From the NCBI GenBank assembly GCA_029059965.1, contig JAIDUY010000525.1:1-17457 (forward strand): a DNA stretch of 17,457 bases, in the 5' to 3' direction. A program made the position numbers and the translations under genes. This DNA comes from Muribaculaceae bacterium (lineage in GTDB: Bacteria; Bacteroidota; Bacteroidia; Bacteroidales; Muribaculaceae). The notes beneath the pieces are model-generated. The model saw nothing but the letters and a program-made list of their open reading frames with translations, was not told where the DNA came from and did no database searches. This document shows, in pieces, positions 11,273 through 17,309 of this stretch (its first letter is position 1; each line of letters begins with the position of its first letter).

Positions 11273-11746
11273 TTAGAATTCGGTGAATGCCAGCGGCAGC
11301 AGCGAGGCCACCGAGGGCAGGATGTAGATTTCTTCGGCTCCTGCGAGGAGGACTGGCACGGGATGTCCCGAGAGCTTCTCGTATTCGAGCAGCGACTGGC
11401 GGCAGGCGCCGCAAGGTGCCGTGGGCTGTGCGGTAGGCTTGCCGTCGGGACCGACAGCGGCCACAGCTATGCGCGCGAAGCCTACGCCGGGATAGCGCGC
11501 GCCGGCATAGAAGCAGGCCGAACGCTCGGCGCAGGTTCCCGACGGATAGGCCACATTCTCCTGATTGGCGCCGGTCACAGTCACGCCGTTTTCCAACAGT
11601 ATGGCTGCTCCGACCTTGAAGTGACTGTAAGGAGCATACGAGCCGGCGATTGCCGACTTGGCGGCATCGACAAGGGCGCGGTCGATGTCGTCGAGCTCAT
11701 CGTAGCCGCGGGCTATTATAGGAGTTGCAATATCTAATTCTTTCAT
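11273..11746 (-). CDS. cdd: Cytidine deaminase
   Basis: Deaminates cytidine and deoxycytidine to uridine and deoxyuridine in pyrimidine salvage. The 157-residue protein is of the short, homotetrameric type with three zinc cysteines: CAE at residues 72-74 (Cys72 ligand, Glu74 proton shuttle) and PCGAC at 111-115 (Cys112, Cys115). YAPYSHFKVGAA at 38-49 and NQENVAYPSGTCAERSA at 61-77 are the substrate loops. I chose the ATG at 11746; the frame stays open upstream to 11803, but the extra 19 codons are translated promoter. First gene of the cdd-tyrS-DUF2007 operon. Confidence 0.95.
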   Translation of the reverse strand: MKELDIATPIIARGYDELDDIDRALVDAAKSAIAGSYAPYSHFKVGAAILLENGVTVTGANQENVAYPSGTCAERSACFYAGARYPGVGFARIAVAAVGPDGKPTAQPTAPCGACRQSLLEYEKLSGHPVPVLLAGAEEIYILPSVASLLPLAFTEF

Positions 11747-11773: not shown

Positions 11774-11804
11774 CAAATATACGGCTTTCGCGCCACCCCG
11801 CAAA
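11774..11804 (-). promoter_or_regulatory. Promoter of cdd-tyrS-DUF2007
   Basis: On the minus strand TTTG at 11804-11801, a 19-nt spacer, then TATATTTG at 11781-11774: a full consensus match. The predicted start near 11770 gives a leader of about 24 nt before the cdd ATG at 11746. Confidence 0.8.
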
Positions 11805-11834: not shown

Positions 11835-12344
11835 TCAGAAACGCACATCAAAATCCTGACGCGGCAGCTTGGGATTGCGCACGATGACAACCGTGCCGCG
11901 GTGATTGTCGAAACTCATGCCGTCGGGCAGGGAGGCAAGCAGTTCCTTCAGTCTGCCGAAGCGCCGCGAGCCTGTCAGTAGGGCGTTGGCGCCGTCGGCC
12001 ACGGCATCGGCGAATGCCTGTTTCTCATCGTCCGAGGCATAGTCGGCTTCCATGACGACAAGGTCGGGGCGCCGTCCGACAAGCCTCGCTTTCGGCAAGG
12101 CTGTCCGCACGGCCTCGGCAAGGCGGCGGGAACCGTAGACGGCCACCCGCTCCCCGCCAAGCGCGAGGGCGACACGGAAGACAAGGCGCAGGCGCTTGTC
12201 GGTCAGCCGTTCGTAGGCATAGTAAGCACGATTCTGGTTCAGCACCTCGGTGATGAACCGGAACGCGAACGGCGAGTGGATGCCGAAGCCGCGTCCGTGG
12301 CGCAGCATACGCCACTGAAGCAATGGATTCAGAAGAGACGCCAC
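11835..12344 (-). CDS. Shortened methyltransferase-like protein, probably without SAM-binding loop
   Basis: A 169-residue protein. Its start resembles the Bacteroidetes class I methyltransferase-like family: LQWRMLRHGRGFGIHSPFAF with the conserved His-Ser-Pro-Phe at residues 23-26, then a Tyr-rich segment (YYAYERL). The end also fits: a strand PDLVVMEADY, DGMSFDNHRGTVVIVRN and the final FDVRF. From memory members are about 230-260 residues and have a glycine-rich ELGTSLG-type SAM loop. Here the middle is shorter and that loop is missing. It may therefore be non-catalytic or have a changed role. The start is a GTG (12344) overlapping the yfhO end by 16 nt; an internal ATG at residue 13 is the alternative. 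Function unknown. Confidence 0.7.
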   Translation of the reverse strand: MASLLNPLLQWRMLRHGRGFGIHSPFAFRFITEVLNQNRAYYAYERLTDKRLRLVFRVALALGGERVAVYGSRRLAEAVRTALPKARLVGRRPDLVVMEADYASDDEKQAFADAVADGANALLTGSRRFGRLKELLASLPDGMSFDNHRGTVVIVRNPKLPRQDFDVRF

Positions 12345-14950
12345 TTGTGCGATTCCACGAATATGCCTCCGAGAAGAAGCAGATAGATCAGACTTACGCA
12401 GGCATAGGCTACGTTGGAGCTCACATTAATCGACTCGGGGTCGAATGTCATGGTGATTTCATGAGTTCCGGCGGGGATGCTGACCGCACGCAGGATATAG
12501 TTCACGCGGGCGAGGGGAACCTCGTTGCCGTCGATTTCAGCCTTCCATCCCCAGGGGAAATAGACCTCCGAGAACACGCCGGTGGCCGGAGCCGTCGTCG
12601 TCGTGCGGTAGCTCAGGCGGTTGGGACTGTATTCGGTCATGTAGATTGTGTCGCCGGGACTGAGCGAGGGCACTTCCGGCAGCGAGGCCGCGAAGGAGCG
12701 GTCGGCCACAGCCGTGCGGTGCAGGTCGAGGTCGGCGGTGAGAGCGTCCATCTCGGCACGGGCGCCGTCGACCCACACGATGGAGTCGACGAGCCATGCG
12801 TTGCCCATGGCTCCGGGATTTACAAGAAGAGGCCTCTGCGGGTCGCCTGTGATGATGTAGCGGGCGTTGAGCATGTCGACCACCGCATGGCCGTCGGCAA
12901 CTCCGGGCTGTGTCTCGGCGCCGGCCTGATAGCCGTAGCGGAGCACGGGCATCAGCTTCTCGGAGATGATGTCGTCGTAGCGGTTGAGCTTGGCGGCATG
13001 GTATCCGCCGAGCATCTTGTGGAAGTAGCTGCGGCGGGCGTCCTGGAAGCCGGGGATGTCGAGAACACGGTAGTGTCCCACGCTGTCGCCGAGAATGGCA
13101 CGGTCGATGGCATCGGCTTCGATTCCGTGCGAATCGCCCGCGGGAGGTCCGAAGGATGCGTGGCTGACATAACGCTTGTCAGTGCCGTAGAGGTCGATAA
13201 GAACAAGCAGACCGATGGCGCATATGGCCACGGGGCGGCGCACACCGGCACCCTTGCCGCGTCCGTACCACAGCAGGAAGACGAAGCCGAGGGCAAGGAA
13301 GAGCAGCGAGCGCAGCGCATCGGAGCGCACCAGTCCGAGTCGCAGCGTCTTGACGGCCTCGAAGGTCGTCGGATTGGACAGCGAGTAGTCGTACATGGCC
13401 GCCGCAATCTCATCCTGCGACGCGCCCTGCATGCCGTACACCTGCGCCACCTGCATCTGCAGGTACTGGAGGTTGGGGCTTTCGAGGTCGCGTCCGCTCA
13501 CGGGATTGCCGAAAACAGTAGGAGCCACGACAGCAAGCAGGGCTATGGCTCCGGGGATGGCGAAGGACGCGATGAGCGGCTTGCGGTAGCGGCTCCATGC
13601 CTCCGAACCGGCTTCGATGAATTCCGCCAGCGCGAGGACGCCAAGCAGAGGCATGGCGAACTCGGCAACGACGAGTATGCTCTCGACGGCGCGGAACTTA
13701 TTGTAGAGCGGGAAGTGGTATATCATCCAGTCGGACAGCCACATTGCATTGTAGCCCAAGGCGAGCAGGCACGACATCAGCGTGGCCGCCGCCATGGCCC
13801 ACTTGAGCGGGCCGCGGACAATGAAGCATCCCAACAGGAAAAGGGCGGCAATGATTGCGCCGACGTAAACAGGGCCGTTGGTGCCCTCGCTGTCGTTGAA
13901 ATACTGTGGCAGGCAGCTCAGCACATAGCCCGTGGGGGTGTCTGTGCCGAAGCCTTCGGCTCCGTCGAGCTCCGCGAGGCTGCTCATCACCATCGAGCCA
14001 CCCTCGGGACGGGCGCTGGCACCACCTTTGATATTGGGAATCAGCAGAGAGAACATCTCGCTCTGTCCGTAGCTCCAACCCACAATCTGCTCCTTGGGCA
14101 TGCCGCCGGTAGGCCTCTCGCCTGTAGCCGCGCCGTTGTCGGCGGCCACGGCAAGCTCGCTCTGCGAGCGCTTGGTCTGCTTGGCGTATTCGTAGGTATT
14201 GTAAAGCGAGGGCGCGTTGGCGCCGAGGGCGAGCAGGCCTGCAAGGAGAGCGAGGGCGCTGCCCGTGAGCCATGTGCGGAGAGTGTGGCGGCGGATGGCG
14301 TCGATAAGATAGGCGATGGCAATCAGAGCCATGACGAGGCCGAAGTAATAGCTCATCTGCGGATGGTTGGCCGACAGCTGCATCATGGCGAAGAATGCCG
14401 TCAGGGCCGTGCCTATGAGCTTACGTCCTTTATAGAGCAGCACGATGCCGCCTATTGTCGGCGGTATATAGGTCAGAGCCATGAATTTCCATATGTGCCC
14501 CGCGCCGATGATGATTATAAAGTAGCTCGACAGGCCCCACGCCACGGCACCTATGAGGGCGTAGTACCAGCGCTTGCCCAGAGCGTACATCAGAATCAGG
14601 AAGCCCATCATCATCATGAACAGCAGGTTCGATGGCGACGGCAGTCCCAGCCCGTAGGCGGTGTTCACCCACGAGAAAAGGCTGTTCGACGGATAGGAGG
14701 GCGAAATCTGGAAGGTGGGCATACCGCCGAAAAGCGAGTTTGTCCACAGCGCCTTTTCGCCTGTGGCCTCCTCCCATGCCTGGCCTTCGTGGCCGTTGGC
14801 GGCACCCTGAATCATGTCGGGCTGCCGCAGACTGTTACCCTCGAAGTTGTCGGGGTAGAAGAATGCCAGCGAGATGATGGCCATCACGGCCACCGATACT
14901 AAAAAGCCCCATACCTGAGGGCGCGAAAGTATTGTTTTTATCTTGTCCAT
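12329..14950 (-). CDS. YfhO-family multi-pass membrane protein
   Basis: A 873-residue protein with about a dozen transmembrane helices: the first at residues about 14-31, a block between about 115 and 560, and a last one near the C-terminus. A large soluble, presumably extracytoplasmic region (about residues 600-845) comes before that helix. The segments YALIGAVAWGLSSYF, GHIWKFMALTYIPP and SANHPQMSYYFG, and the late NYILRAVSIPAGTHEI, are characteristic of YfhO. In Firmicutes YfhO proteins are GT-C-type enzymes that glycosylate cell-wall polymers; the substrate here is unknown. I use the ATG at 14950. The frame is open upstream to 15100, but that part is the promoter and repeat. The first 13 codons match those of the small gene upstream exactly. 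Confidence 0.88.
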   Translation of the reverse strand: MDKIKTILSRPQVWGFLVSVAVMAIISLAFFYPDNFEGNSLRQPDMIQGAANGHEGQAWEEATGEKALWTNSLFGGMPTFQISPSYPSNSLFSWVNTAYGLGLPSPSNLLFMMMMGFLILMYALGKRWYYALIGAVAWGLSSYFIIIIGAGHIWKFMALTYIPPTIGGIVLLYKGRKLIGTALTAFFAMMQLSANHPQMSYYFGLVMALIAIAYLIDAIRRHTLRTWLTGSALALLAGLLALGANAPSLYNTYEYAKQTKRSQSELAVAADNGAATGERPTGGMPKEQIVGWSYGQSEMFSLLIPNIKGGASARPEGGSMVMSSLAELDGAEGFGTDTPTGYVLSCLPQYFNDSEGTNGPVYVGAIIAALFLLGCFIVRGPLKWAMAAATLMSCLLALGYNAMWLSDWMIYHFPLYNKFRAVESILVVAEFAMPLLGVLALAEFIEAGSEAWSRYRKPLIASFAIPGAIALLAVVAPTVFGNPVSGRDLESPNLQYLQMQVAQVYGMQGASQDEIAAAMYDYSLSNPTTFEAVKTLRLGLVRSDALRSLLFLALGFVFLLWYGRGKGAGVRRPVAICAIGLLVLIDLYGTDKRYVSHASFGPPAGDSHGIEADAIDRAILGDSVGHYRVLDIPGFQDARRSYFHKMLGGYHAAKLNRYDDIISEKLMPVLRYGYQAGAETQPGVADGHAVVDMLNARYIITGDPQRPLLVNPGAMGNAWLVDSIVWVDGARAEMDALTADLDLHRTAVADRSFAASLPEVPSLSPGDTIYMTEYSPNRLSYRTTTTAPATGVFSEVYFPWGWKAEIDGNEVPLARVNYILRAVSIPAGTHEITMTFDPESINVSSNVAYACVSLIYLLLLGGIFVESHKWRLF

Positions 14951-15139
14951 AATCAATAAACGGCAAAACGGATGCAAAAGTAAACGATTGCGGCGAATCT
15001 TCCAAAAAGTCGGCGTCACTCGCCGGTGCTGAGCCTGAAAGTAATCGGCAGGGTATATGACACCCTGACCGGATGCCCGTTGTTGAGCCCCGGATTCCAT
15101 CGCGGCATGGCATTCACCACACGCAGTGCCTCGCGGTCG
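14928..15139. repeat. 212-bp perfect direct repeat, copy A
   Basis: Identical over 212 bp to 15455-15666 (offset 527 bp). This copy holds the last 40 codons and stop of the small TonB-domain gene, the 65-bp intergenic promoter and the first seven codons of yfhO. At lower coordinates the match continues with substitutions to about 14837. At higher coordinates it drops abruptly to protein-level homology only. Confidence 0.97.
14975..15006 (-). promoter_or_regulatory. Promoter of yfhO (copy A of a duplicated promoter)
   Basis: On the minus strand TTTG at 15006-15003, a 20-nt spacer, TACTTTTG at 14982-14975. This is a full Bacteroidetes consensus, giving a leader of about 21 nt before the ATG at 14950. 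The -33 box begins 10 nt past the stop codon of the upstream gene. The sequence is identical to the promoter at 15502-15533. Confidence 0.8.
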
Positions 15140-15477
15140 TATGCAGGGCCTAAAGAACGTACAATGCAGGCTTCGCGGACAAAGCCCTCTTTGTCGATTA
15201 TAAATCTTACAACTAATCTGCTGACCGGCTCTACATCATCAGCTAATGACGGGTTCACATAGTTCTCGGCAAAGAAGCTGTACAATGCATTTTCGCCACC
15301 GGGGAAAATTGGTGTTTGCTCTACTTCCTCATAATTATAGACAGCTTCATCATCAGGAGCAGCACCTTGAACCTTGTACGGGTGGAAGAATGCCAACATG
15401 ATGACAGCCATCACGACCACGGATATGGGAAAGTCCCCGACCTGAGGGCGCGAGAGTATTGTTTTTATCTTGTCCAT
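15016..15477 (-). CDS. Chimeric membrane-anchored TonB C-terminal domain protein
   Basis: A 153-residue protein assembled from two neighbours. Residues 1-38 align without gaps with the YfhO start: residues 1-13 identical, then 13 of 25 identical, including a single transmembrane helix at about 17-31. Residues 46-153 align without gaps with residues 481-588 of the kinase-TonB protein. There 24 of 68 residues match up to residue 113, and all of the last 40 match. The layout (cytosolic stub, one helix, periplasmic TonB-type domain with FPGG at 58-61 and LPITFRL near the end) looks functional. No SxxxH motif for ExbB contact is seen in the helix, so energy transduction as in true TonB is doubtful. 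I take the ATG at 15477; upstream opening to 15627 is repeat sequence. Confidence 0.85.
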   Translation of the reverse strand: MDKIKTILSRPQVGDFPISVVVMAVIMLAFFHPYKVQGAAPDDEAVYNYEEVEQTPIFPGGENALYSFFAENYVNPSLADDVEPVSRLVVRFIIDKEGFVREACIVRSLGPAYDREALRVVNAMPRWNPGLNNGHPVRVSYTLPITFRLSTGE

Positions 15478-15666
15478 AATCAATAAACGGCAAAACGGAT
15501 GCAAAAGTAAACGATTGCGGCGAATCTTCCAAAAAGTCGGCGTCACTCGCCGGTGCTGAGCCTGAAAGTAATCGGCAGGGTATATGACACCCTGACCGGA
15601 TGCCCGTTGTTGAGCCCCGGATTCCATCGCGGCATGGCATTCACCACACGCAGTGCCTCGCGGTCG
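15455..15666. repeat. 212-bp perfect direct repeat, copy B
   Basis: Identical to 14928-15139. This copy holds the last 40 codons and stop of the kinase-TonB gene, the 65-bp intergenic promoter and the first seven codons of the chimeric gene. Imperfect homology extends on both sides, so the whole 527-bp block 15364-15890 corresponds to 14837-15363. Confidence 0.97.
15502..15533 (-). promoter_or_regulatory. Promoter of the chimeric TonB-domain gene (copy B)
   Basis: TTTG at 15533-15530, a 20-nt spacer, TACTTTTG at 15509-15502 on the minus strand, base-for-base the same as the yfhO promoter. The predicted leader is about 21 nt before the ATG at 15477. Confidence 0.8.
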
Positions 15667-17309
15667 AGTGCGGGATGCCTGCCGCTCACTATGCGGGCAT
15701 TGCTGATGGAGCCGTCGCGGTCGACAACAAACTCCACAACTACACGCCCCTGCACATTTTCCTCGGCAGCCTCAGTCGGATACATTAGGGTATTCGATAC
15801 GAAACGGTACATTTCGGCTTTGCCGCCGGGGAAAGACGGCGCCTGCTCTAACATAGCTACAGTATAGACCTGATTATTTTGTTCGGGCTGAGGCGCAGGA
15901 GCCGGTGCTTCTACGGGCGCTGTATAATGCGGCAGGGTCTCGCTGAGTTCATCCTGACGCTGACTCTCCTGCGCGGCTGCGGCCTCGGCTTCCTGACGTT
16001 GACGCTCACGCTCGGCTGCCGCCTCTTCTTCGCGGCGCTGACGCTCGCGTTCGGCGATTTCCTGCTGGCGGCGAGCCTCTATTTCGGCAAGCTGTTCGGG
16101 GGTGTACTTGCCGGGAATGTCGGCTATGTTGACCTGATTATCGACTGTGTCAACAAGTCCGGCGACAGCATCGTAGTCGGAATTCGAATCGCCGCCACGG
16201 CTCATAAAGCCGATTATGGCGCCTGCTACGGCGAGCACTATGGCCGCTATGGCGACGTAGAACCACGGCTTGCGCGATGTCGGTTCATCGTCAGCCTTAT
16301 TGTAGCGAGGCCTATAGGACTGGCCGGCAGCCACGGGGCGCACTGCCGTAGGAACTTCGGCTGCCGTAGGTGCTACAGGAGGAACAATGGCGCCGCCTCC
16401 GCTACCTAAGGCGGCAAGGAGGGCGCCCGCATCCTGGTAACGCTCGTTCTTGCGCGGTGCCAGAGCCGTAGTCATAGCCATGCGCAGCGAGGCCGACAGA
16501 GGCAGCGCGGCTATAGTGGCCGCGGGCTCGCCGGCGTGCCATTCCGTACTGATGGCGGGGCGACGACCGGTGGCGGCGTCGTAGAGGGTGGCGCCGAGGG
16601 CGTAGACGTCGGCGGTAGGGCTGAAGCTGCGGATGCCGGAGTACTGTTCGGCAGGCGAGTAGCCGTCGGAATATGCCATCGTGTTGATGGTCGATGTCGC
16701 CGAGCCGTCTTCGTTGTAGTGTTTGCTCAGGCCGAAGTCTATGAGCACGGGGCGTACGACGCCGTCTATGGGCGCATCCAGCATGATGTTGGCCGGCTTG
16801 ATGTCGAGGTGGGTCAGACGGTGACGGTGCAGATGCGCCACGGCGTCGACGACCGGCACAATAAGCGTGCGAATCTCCTCCTCGCTCAGAGGGCCGTACT
16901 CCAATATGTATTCGCCAAGGCTACAGCCGTCGAGATATTCCATCACATAGTAGGCCGTGCCGTTGGCCTCGAAAACCTCGCTGACCTTCACTATGCTGTC
17001 GTGACCGGCTCCGTACTGTGCCAGTCGGCGCGCCTCGGAGATAAAGTCTTTGAGGCTGTTCGCCACCAGCATGCGCGAGTTCTGCGTACCGGGGCATACC
17101 ACCTGCGTTGTGTCGGAGCCGCGTTCGCAGTGCGAGCTCAGGAAATGCTCCTTGATGGCCACCGTGACCGGGGCGTCCATGGATTGTATTGTTGTGCTCG
17201 CCAGATAAGTGATGCCGAAGCCTCCGGCGCCGAGCACGCTCTCGATGCGGTAGGTCTGCTCGCCCTGAAGAACCGTCCCTATCGGGAGCGCCTTGTCGAT
17301 ATTTGCCAT
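15543..17309 (-). CDS. Transmembrane Ser/Thr protein kinase fused to a TonB C-terminal domain
   Basis: A 588-residue protein. Residues about 20-300 are a complete Hanks-type kinase: glycine loop GAGGFG at 27-32, Lys53 in VAIK, Glu92 in the C-helix, HLDIKPAN at 167-174 (catalytic Asp169), DFG at 191-193, SPAE at 218-221 and Asp234. All key catalytic residues are present. After a cytosolic linker a single membrane helix spans about 349-369. A charged Glu/Arg/Gln coiled coil follows (about 403-456), then an Ala/Pro linker (464-476), and a TonB C-terminal domain (about 485-588: FPGG at 493-496, LPITFRL at 578-584). The kinase should be cytosolic and the TonB part periplasmic. The helix lacks the SxxxH motif of energised TonB. 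The ATG at 17309 lies 25 nt after a predicted transcription start. Substrates unknown. Confidence 0.93.
   Translation of the reverse strand: MANIDKALPIGTVLQGEQTYRIESVLGAGGFGITYLASTTIQSMDAPVTVAIKEHFLSSHCERGSDTTQVVCPGTQNSRMLVANSLKDFISEARRLAQYGAGHDSIVKVSEVFEANGTAYYVMEYLDGCSLGEYILEYGPLSEEEIRTLIVPVVDAVAHLHRHRLTHLDIKPANIMLDAPIDGVVRPVLIDFGLSKHYNEDGSATSTINTMAYSDGYSPAEQYSGIRSFSPTADVYALGATLYDAATGRRPAISTEWHAGEPAATIAALPLSASLRMAMTTALAPRKNERYQDAGALLAALGSGGGAIVPPVAPTAAEVPTAVRPVAAGQSYRPRYNKADDEPTSRKPWFYVAIAAIVLAVAGAIIGFMSRGGDSNSDYDAVAGLVDTVDNQVNIADIPGKYTPEQLAEIEARRQQEIAERERQRREEEAAAERERQRQEAEAAAAQESQRQDELSETLPHYTAPVEAPAPAPQPEQNNQVYTVAMLEQAPSFPGGKAEMYRFVSNTLMYPTEAAEENVQGRVVVEFVVDRDGSISNARIVSGRHPALDREALRVVNAMPRWNPGLNNGHPVRVSYTLPITFRLSTGE

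Follow-up and report, generated by a model that had tools for sequence, protein, structure and literature searches.

Between a kinase gene ending in a TonB domain and the gene yfhO, the minus strand of a 17,457-bp stretch of Muribaculaceae DNA (hereafter the window) carries a short reading frame that begins like yfhO and ends like the kinase gene. This arrangement raised the question of whether the frame is a real gene, where its two halves came from and whether it has been kept by selection. Our analysis favours, with moderate confidence, a real, lineage-specific chimera that encodes a membrane-tethered TonB_C protein and arose through duplication and fusion.

Organization of the locus

The kinase-TonB gene, the middle gene, yfhO and a small gene (11835-12344) follow one another on the minus strand (Table 1), and both neighbours of the middle gene adjoin it as intact reading frames. 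The kinase gene matched Pfam Pkinase at 106 bits and TonB_C at 78.4 bits; among the titles listed in a literature search on kinase-TonB proteins, none was relevant. The yfhO product scored 26 bits against Pfam YfhO, under the cut-off of 28.5, and one match per genome was found in 48 of the 49 genus genomes, its own included. The protein sets contained close relatives of both products: P0191, identical to the kinase at 576/588 residues, and P0071, identical to YfhO at 867/873.

Table 1. Features of the locus. Positions are those of the window.
Feature	Position	Strand	Remarks
yfhO	12329..14950	-	873 codons; membrane protein; likely source of the N-terminus and of the promoter-like site
Middle gene	15016..15477	-	153 codons; start and anchor from YfhO (about residues 1-38), then TonB_C
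Kinase-TonB gene	15543..17309	-	588 codons; Ser/Thr kinase, transmembrane segment, linker, TonB_C
Core copy A	14928..15139		yfhO codons 1-7 and 2 bases of codon 8, promoter-like site, middle-gene end
Core copy B	15455..15666		middle-gene codons 1-7 and 2 bases of codon 8, promoter-like site, kinase-TonB end
YfhO-derived part of middle gene outside core	15364..15454	-	counterpart 14837-14927, 68/91 nt
TonB_C part of middle gene outside core	15140..15363	-	counterpart 15667-15890, 115/224 nt
Promoter-like site TTTG-N20-TACTTTTG	14975..15006	-	before yfhO
Identical promoter-like site TTTG-N20-TACTTTTG	15502..15533	-	before middle gene
Weak terminator-like hairpin	15011..15025; second copy 15538-15552	-	around the stop of the middle gene; in both cores

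Further observations concern the kinases and the small gene. Kinase residues 1-23 (17241-17309) are identical to those of the paralogue P0192, while 6 of them are different in P0191, the 98% relative; of the 12 differences between P0191 and the kinase, 8 lie within the first 28 residues. The identity over the first 23 residues suggests that sequence may have been exchanged among kinase genes of the same lineage. P0191 and P0192 were both assigned to contigs of 45,407 bp and may be neighbours. Other contigs of the same genome (L131, L132 and L133) carry related kinases with a common N-terminal kinase part and differing C-terminal halves, and would thereby make up a modular family whose outer domains have been swapped. 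On the far side of yfhO, the small gene encodes a 169-codon protein without a Pfam or NCBIfam match. A relative of this protein, whole or partial, was found 3′ of yfhO in 20 of 25 named loci, some of the matches being short; it is a conserved unknown neighbour of yfhO.

Repeat structure and layers of divergence

As the preliminary description had reported, positions 14837-15363 align without gaps to 15364-15890 at a constant offset of 527 bp. Towards yfhO the similarity is lost at about 14837, towards the TonB end at about 15350-15363, and the block encloses an exact core of 212/212 nucleotides. Chance similarity is excluded, because the 17,457-bp window holds no other exact direct repeat of at least 16 nt (pairs wholly within 14900-15700 were left aside).

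The same description had read the block as the result of one duplication and had not told its layers apart. The similarity is real; one duplication of a uniform block was not upheld: the block consists of three layers of unlike divergence (100, 76 and 53% identity) and not of one. The YfhO part, codons 9-38 of the middle gene, matched its own yfhO at 68/90 nt (76%), and the TonB part matched its kinase counterpart at 115/216 nt (53%) over 72 codons, one core base included. By codon position, the identities in the TonB part were 32, 50 and 33 of 72. Third codon positions were identical at 22/30 in the YfhO part vs. 33/72 in the TonB part (Fisher p 0.016), and the TonB part was also the more diverged when all positions were counted (p 0.0003). 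Identical residues outside the core came to 24/72 in the TonB part and 18/30 in the YfhO part; the 24/68 and 13/25 given earlier had been counted within different limits. Part of the gap between the two halves may reflect the constraint on yfhO itself, with one side only changing.

Because a core of 212/212 sits between flanks of 53% and 76%, a later exchange between the copies is needed, and the ends were most likely homogenised after the duplication by gene conversion. Two other accounts of the core were rejected. A single recent duplication is ruled out, since one uniform clock cannot give 212 identical positions between such flanks. Preservation of the core by function is likewise ruled out by the comparison of the kinase with the genome's own TonB, which share 72/105 bp at the TonB end, and functional constraint is also contradicted by the silent and non-coding positions inside the core.

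The middle gene and its predicted product

The fusion of the yfhO start to a TonB domain was borne out. The join is in frame and gives a single open product, whose ATG has the sequence context of the yfhO start and whose stop is that of the kinase gene, the last 40 codons being common to it and the kinase gene; the open reading frame listing gives it as 203 aa, from an in-frame ATG further upstream. The 153-residue protein matched Pfam TonB_C (PF03544) at 48.1 bits (cut-off 24.6), with an alignment spanning profile positions 17-79 only, and TIGR01352 at 30.9 (cut-off 27.1). At residues 75, 86 and 88 it has N, S and L, where an alignment of 47 TonBs has at least 90% Y, G and V, respectively.

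One hydrophobic segment is present, with its best 19-mer at residues 13-31. If the N-terminus stays inside, the predicted product is a TonB_C domain in the periplasm, tethered to the inner membrane. The tether before the FPGG motif measures 26 residues; that of the kinase has 124, and that of the TonB encoded in the same genome 131. The protein thus lacks the long periplasmic linker that marks a TonB energy transducer and was not classed as one, and with a tether so far below 124 and 131 residues it probably cannot extend to the outer membrane in the manner of an ordinary transducer. The function we rank first, a guess that we nevertheless think less likely to be right than wrong, is that of a partner or decoy acting at short range on proteins that bind TonB_C or on the periplasmic TonB_C of the kinase itself.

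A search of 5.8 billion proteins with the middle protein yielded 70 matches at E ≤1e-15 from 197 candidates. The sole full-length match among the 70 was P0001, also of 153 residues and identical at 152/153, with one replacement (T55K); the remaining 69 were TonB_C proteins. P0001 belongs to a cluster of two sequences from two contigs. The longest of these contigs, at 132,198 bp, exceeds the 17,457-bp contig of the window, so the cluster does not stem from the latter alone; the cluster may include the window's own protein, and P0001 was counted as one independent sequence. The cluster sizes of the middle protein (2 members), the kinase (6) and YfhO (8) were rejected as a measure of presence and absence: the shorter a protein, the fewer distinct variants it yields, and the sizes are not comparable.

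The locus in relatives and the origin of the YfhO part

The order first proposed as ancestral (kinase-TonB gene, promoter, yfhO) was seen in no relative examined, either among 29 genus relatives or in 25 named loci. Of the 48 genus relatives searched, 47 carried yfhO. The sequence before yfhO was read in 29 of these 47 (about 1.5 kb in 26, and 126, 306 and 746 bp in the other three), and it contained no middle gene and, by tblastn, no kinase or TonB gene. The named loci, found through YfhO and mostly labelled Porphyromonadaceae, Muribaculaceae or Bacteroidales, come from genomes that partly overlap the genus set; in their upstream sequence (6 kb in 17 loci, 126-4386 bp in eight) tblastn likewise found no kinase or TonB gene. 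As the kinase does not adjoin yfhO in these relatives, neither order is seen in them. An independent, longer TonB gene before yfhO, which had been named as the finding contrary to a fusion, did not appear in the upstream sequence examined either. In the nearest relative (73% YfhO), an 819-codon reading frame of another kind occupies the site upstream of yfhO.

When 99 genomes were searched with the middle protein, matches were obtained in 95, the genome of the window included; outside the window, none among the matches listed started before query residue 17. Over codons 9-38, the middle gene agreed better with its own yfhO (68/90 nt, as above) than with any of 29 other yfhO genes (at most 59/90). 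The earlier view that both halves came from the adjoining genes is therefore well founded for the YfhO half, and by the same closeness the fusion most probably postdates the separation from the relatives sampled. A foreign mobile origin was considered and rejected: the 1.3-kb region gave no phage match, and the 14 plasmid records that it matched were TonB-like and each covered less than 80% of the query.

Origin of the TonB part

For the TonB half, descent from the TonB domain of this kinase is undecided. The 24/72 residues (33%) identical to the kinase domain outside the core compare with up to 42-43% to other TonBs, and the kinase ranked outside the best 25 of the 116 rows compared for this part. 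Of 22 sites at which the kinase differs from the genus consensus, 7 carry the consensus residue in the middle gene, 3 the residue of the kinase and 12 a different one. The third-position G+C of its TonB part is 0.42, vs. 0.60 in the kinase counterpart and 0.78 in yfhO. Along with the three strata and the greater divergence of the TonB part than of the YfhO part, both overall and at third positions, these values argue for a mosaic: the TonB_C domain would have come from another TonB-family gene, gene conversion would have replaced only its last 40 codons with those of the kinase gene (or vice versa), and the yfhO start would have been joined separately.

We regard such a mosaic as a serious but unlikely origin. 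In a tree built for the TonB part from 102 rows and 73 columns, the middle gene had a branch of 1.73 and no clear placement, and a clade of kinase and middle gene was not rejected (AU p 0.415). This tree left out P0001, which is nearly identical to the query, P0002 and P0004, which have two TonB domains each, and P0005, taken from its length alone to be like them; those TonB domains of the loci that were cut off or had a stop in the first 100 residues had been excluded beforehand, with 36 kept, and one domain of the window's own genome entered twice. The kinase has 4 rare residues in common with the middle protein, compared to 5 for one other row and at most 3 for the rest. Moreover, a long, freely evolving branch, the constraint on yfhO and staggered conversions would yield the same pattern as a mosaic, and the constant 527-bp offset over the whole block is given by a single duplication without further assumptions.

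Selection or drift

The TonB part was compared with 2000 neutral simulations that started from the kinase's TonB domain and ran to the same divergence, and that presume descent from the kinase. Scored against a profile of 34 TonB rows from its own and related genus genomes, the middle gene's TonB part obtained 60.2 bits and the kinase 114.7, whereas the best simulation reached 28.6; none of the 2000 kept the score of the middle gene, and 195 remained open. The TonB part is not the outcome of simple drift: it is constrained, and even under the rival origin it has not drifted at random. The YfhO part has changed as under drift. Its codons 9-38 comprise 12 replacement and 5 silent codons, and 21% of the neutral simulations had a residue identity at least as high as the observed 18/30. 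The hydrophobicity of the anchor (2.69, against a simulated mean of 1.98) was reached by 6.7% of 972 open simulations, a marginal value. The proposal that the gene had been kept by selection was accordingly sustained for its TonB part and not for its YfhO part.

The neutral change of the YfhO part, the loss of nearly invariant TonB_C residues at positions 75, 86 and 88 and a Pfam match limited to profile positions 17-79 would also be expected if the duplication had been an accident and the middle frame were a pseudogene in the making. Decay of this kind is improbable in view of the simulations, with their assumption of kinase descent, and of the intact second sequence, which differs at 1 residue in 153.

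An assembly accident in a fragmented metagenome bin (545 contigs, completeness 83.26, contamination 6.26%), with an exact core that exceeds usual short-read k-mers, is unlikely in general and, as an account of the middle gene itself, highly improbable and largely refuted, because the YfhO-TonB junction sits outside the exact repeat, where repeat-driven misassembly would not create it, and is spanned by the distinct full-length protein P0001.

Predicted expression and proposed history

In both yfhO and the middle gene, TTTG-N20-TACTTTTG lies at -56 to -25 from the ATG. It matches the -33/-7 promoter pattern quoted for Bacteroides fragilis in PMC7366714. The pattern occurs four times on the minus strand of the window and not on the plus strand, two of the occurrences being the core copies. 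All four sites (15533, 15006, 11804 and 8714) are on the gene-bearing strand, and those at 11804 and 8714 precede likely ATGs at 11746 (58 nt) and 8675. Among 30 yfhO loci, the window included, the full pattern was present within 150 bp upstream (126 bp in one locus) in two; the nearest relative lacked it there. As an identical site stands ahead of both genes, transcription of the middle gene from this predicted promoter-like site is expected to resemble that of yfhO. The folding z of the terminator-like hairpin was only -1.23, and Rfam gave no match at gathering scores.

For the chimera favoured here, the following history is proposed. A duplication, the event to which the observed architecture points, would have set a second copy of the segment comprising the TonB 3′ end, the promoter and the yfhO start beside the first. 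The promoter, leader and first 38 or so codons of yfhO would then have come to drive and anchor a TonB_C domain, and the copies would have diverged. Judging from the layered divergence, a recent homologous exchange between the tandem copies would have re-homogenised the 212-bp core with its last 40 TonB codons, promoter-like site and first 7 codons.

Recombination between the two identical cores would delete the middle gene cleanly, with both neighbours left intact. Recombination is known to remove tandem duplications, short ones slowly (about 1e-4 per generation at 2.6 kb; PMC12607827). It is conceivable, and in our opinion doubtful, that the core is a conserved expression cassette and recombination site in one, where continual exchange keeps the chimera under the yfhO promoter and lets the gene come and go cleanly. 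If the core did serve as a recombination site, the middle gene would be present in some cells and absent in others, with the parents unharmed.

Comparison with known systems

Fusion genes born of tandem duplication are a kind already known from laboratory selections. The closest case is sigH of Staphylococcus aureus, where spontaneous short-junction tandem duplications join the start of a downstream gene to an upstream gene (PMC3486894). As in the middle gene, the downstream gene contributes its promoter, start and first codons (e.g., rplK codon 42) to a fusion with the upstream gene, both parents stay intact and the protein is chimeric. The sigH events were laboratory-selected, reversible and rare (≤1e-5), and they restored expression of a cryptic gene; the middle gene, in contrast, is natural and diverged, is known from two sequences, has taken one domain of the upstream gene and had its ends later homogenised. 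In the his genes of Salmonella, tandem duplications supply genes with new promoters by fusion (Anderson and Roth, 1978, cited in PMC11111574), the join point likewise placing the promoter of one gene ahead of another coding sequence; the middle gene differs in being a protein fusion besides, with flanks old enough to have diverged.

Bacterial fusion genes born by deletion (PMC12803068) are similar in that a new gene is made from existing fragments through structural change; duplication, unlike deletion, let both parents survive. Chimeras of Drosophila also arise by partial tandem duplication that joins parts of genes (PMC5460883), and the middle gene is set apart from them by being bacterial and by an in-frame coding fusion at the join. 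The product itself resembles proteins of the TonB family (energy transducer TonB, PF03544) in having a C-terminal TonB_C behind one hydrophobic segment, and differs from the TonB of the same genome in its tether (about 26 vs. 131 residues) and its YfhO-derived N-terminus.

Among the titles listed in literature searches on duplication and fusion there was no natural, diverged bacterial case like the middle gene, which is not proof of absence. With its parents, join, borrowed promoter-like site and a second sequence all in view, this natural case shows what a fusion gene of the kind obtained in the laboratory becomes later. By its layered divergence, the origin of the gene can be told apart from the exchange that later took place between its ends, and the case serves as a warning that a near-perfect repeat may conceal an old event.
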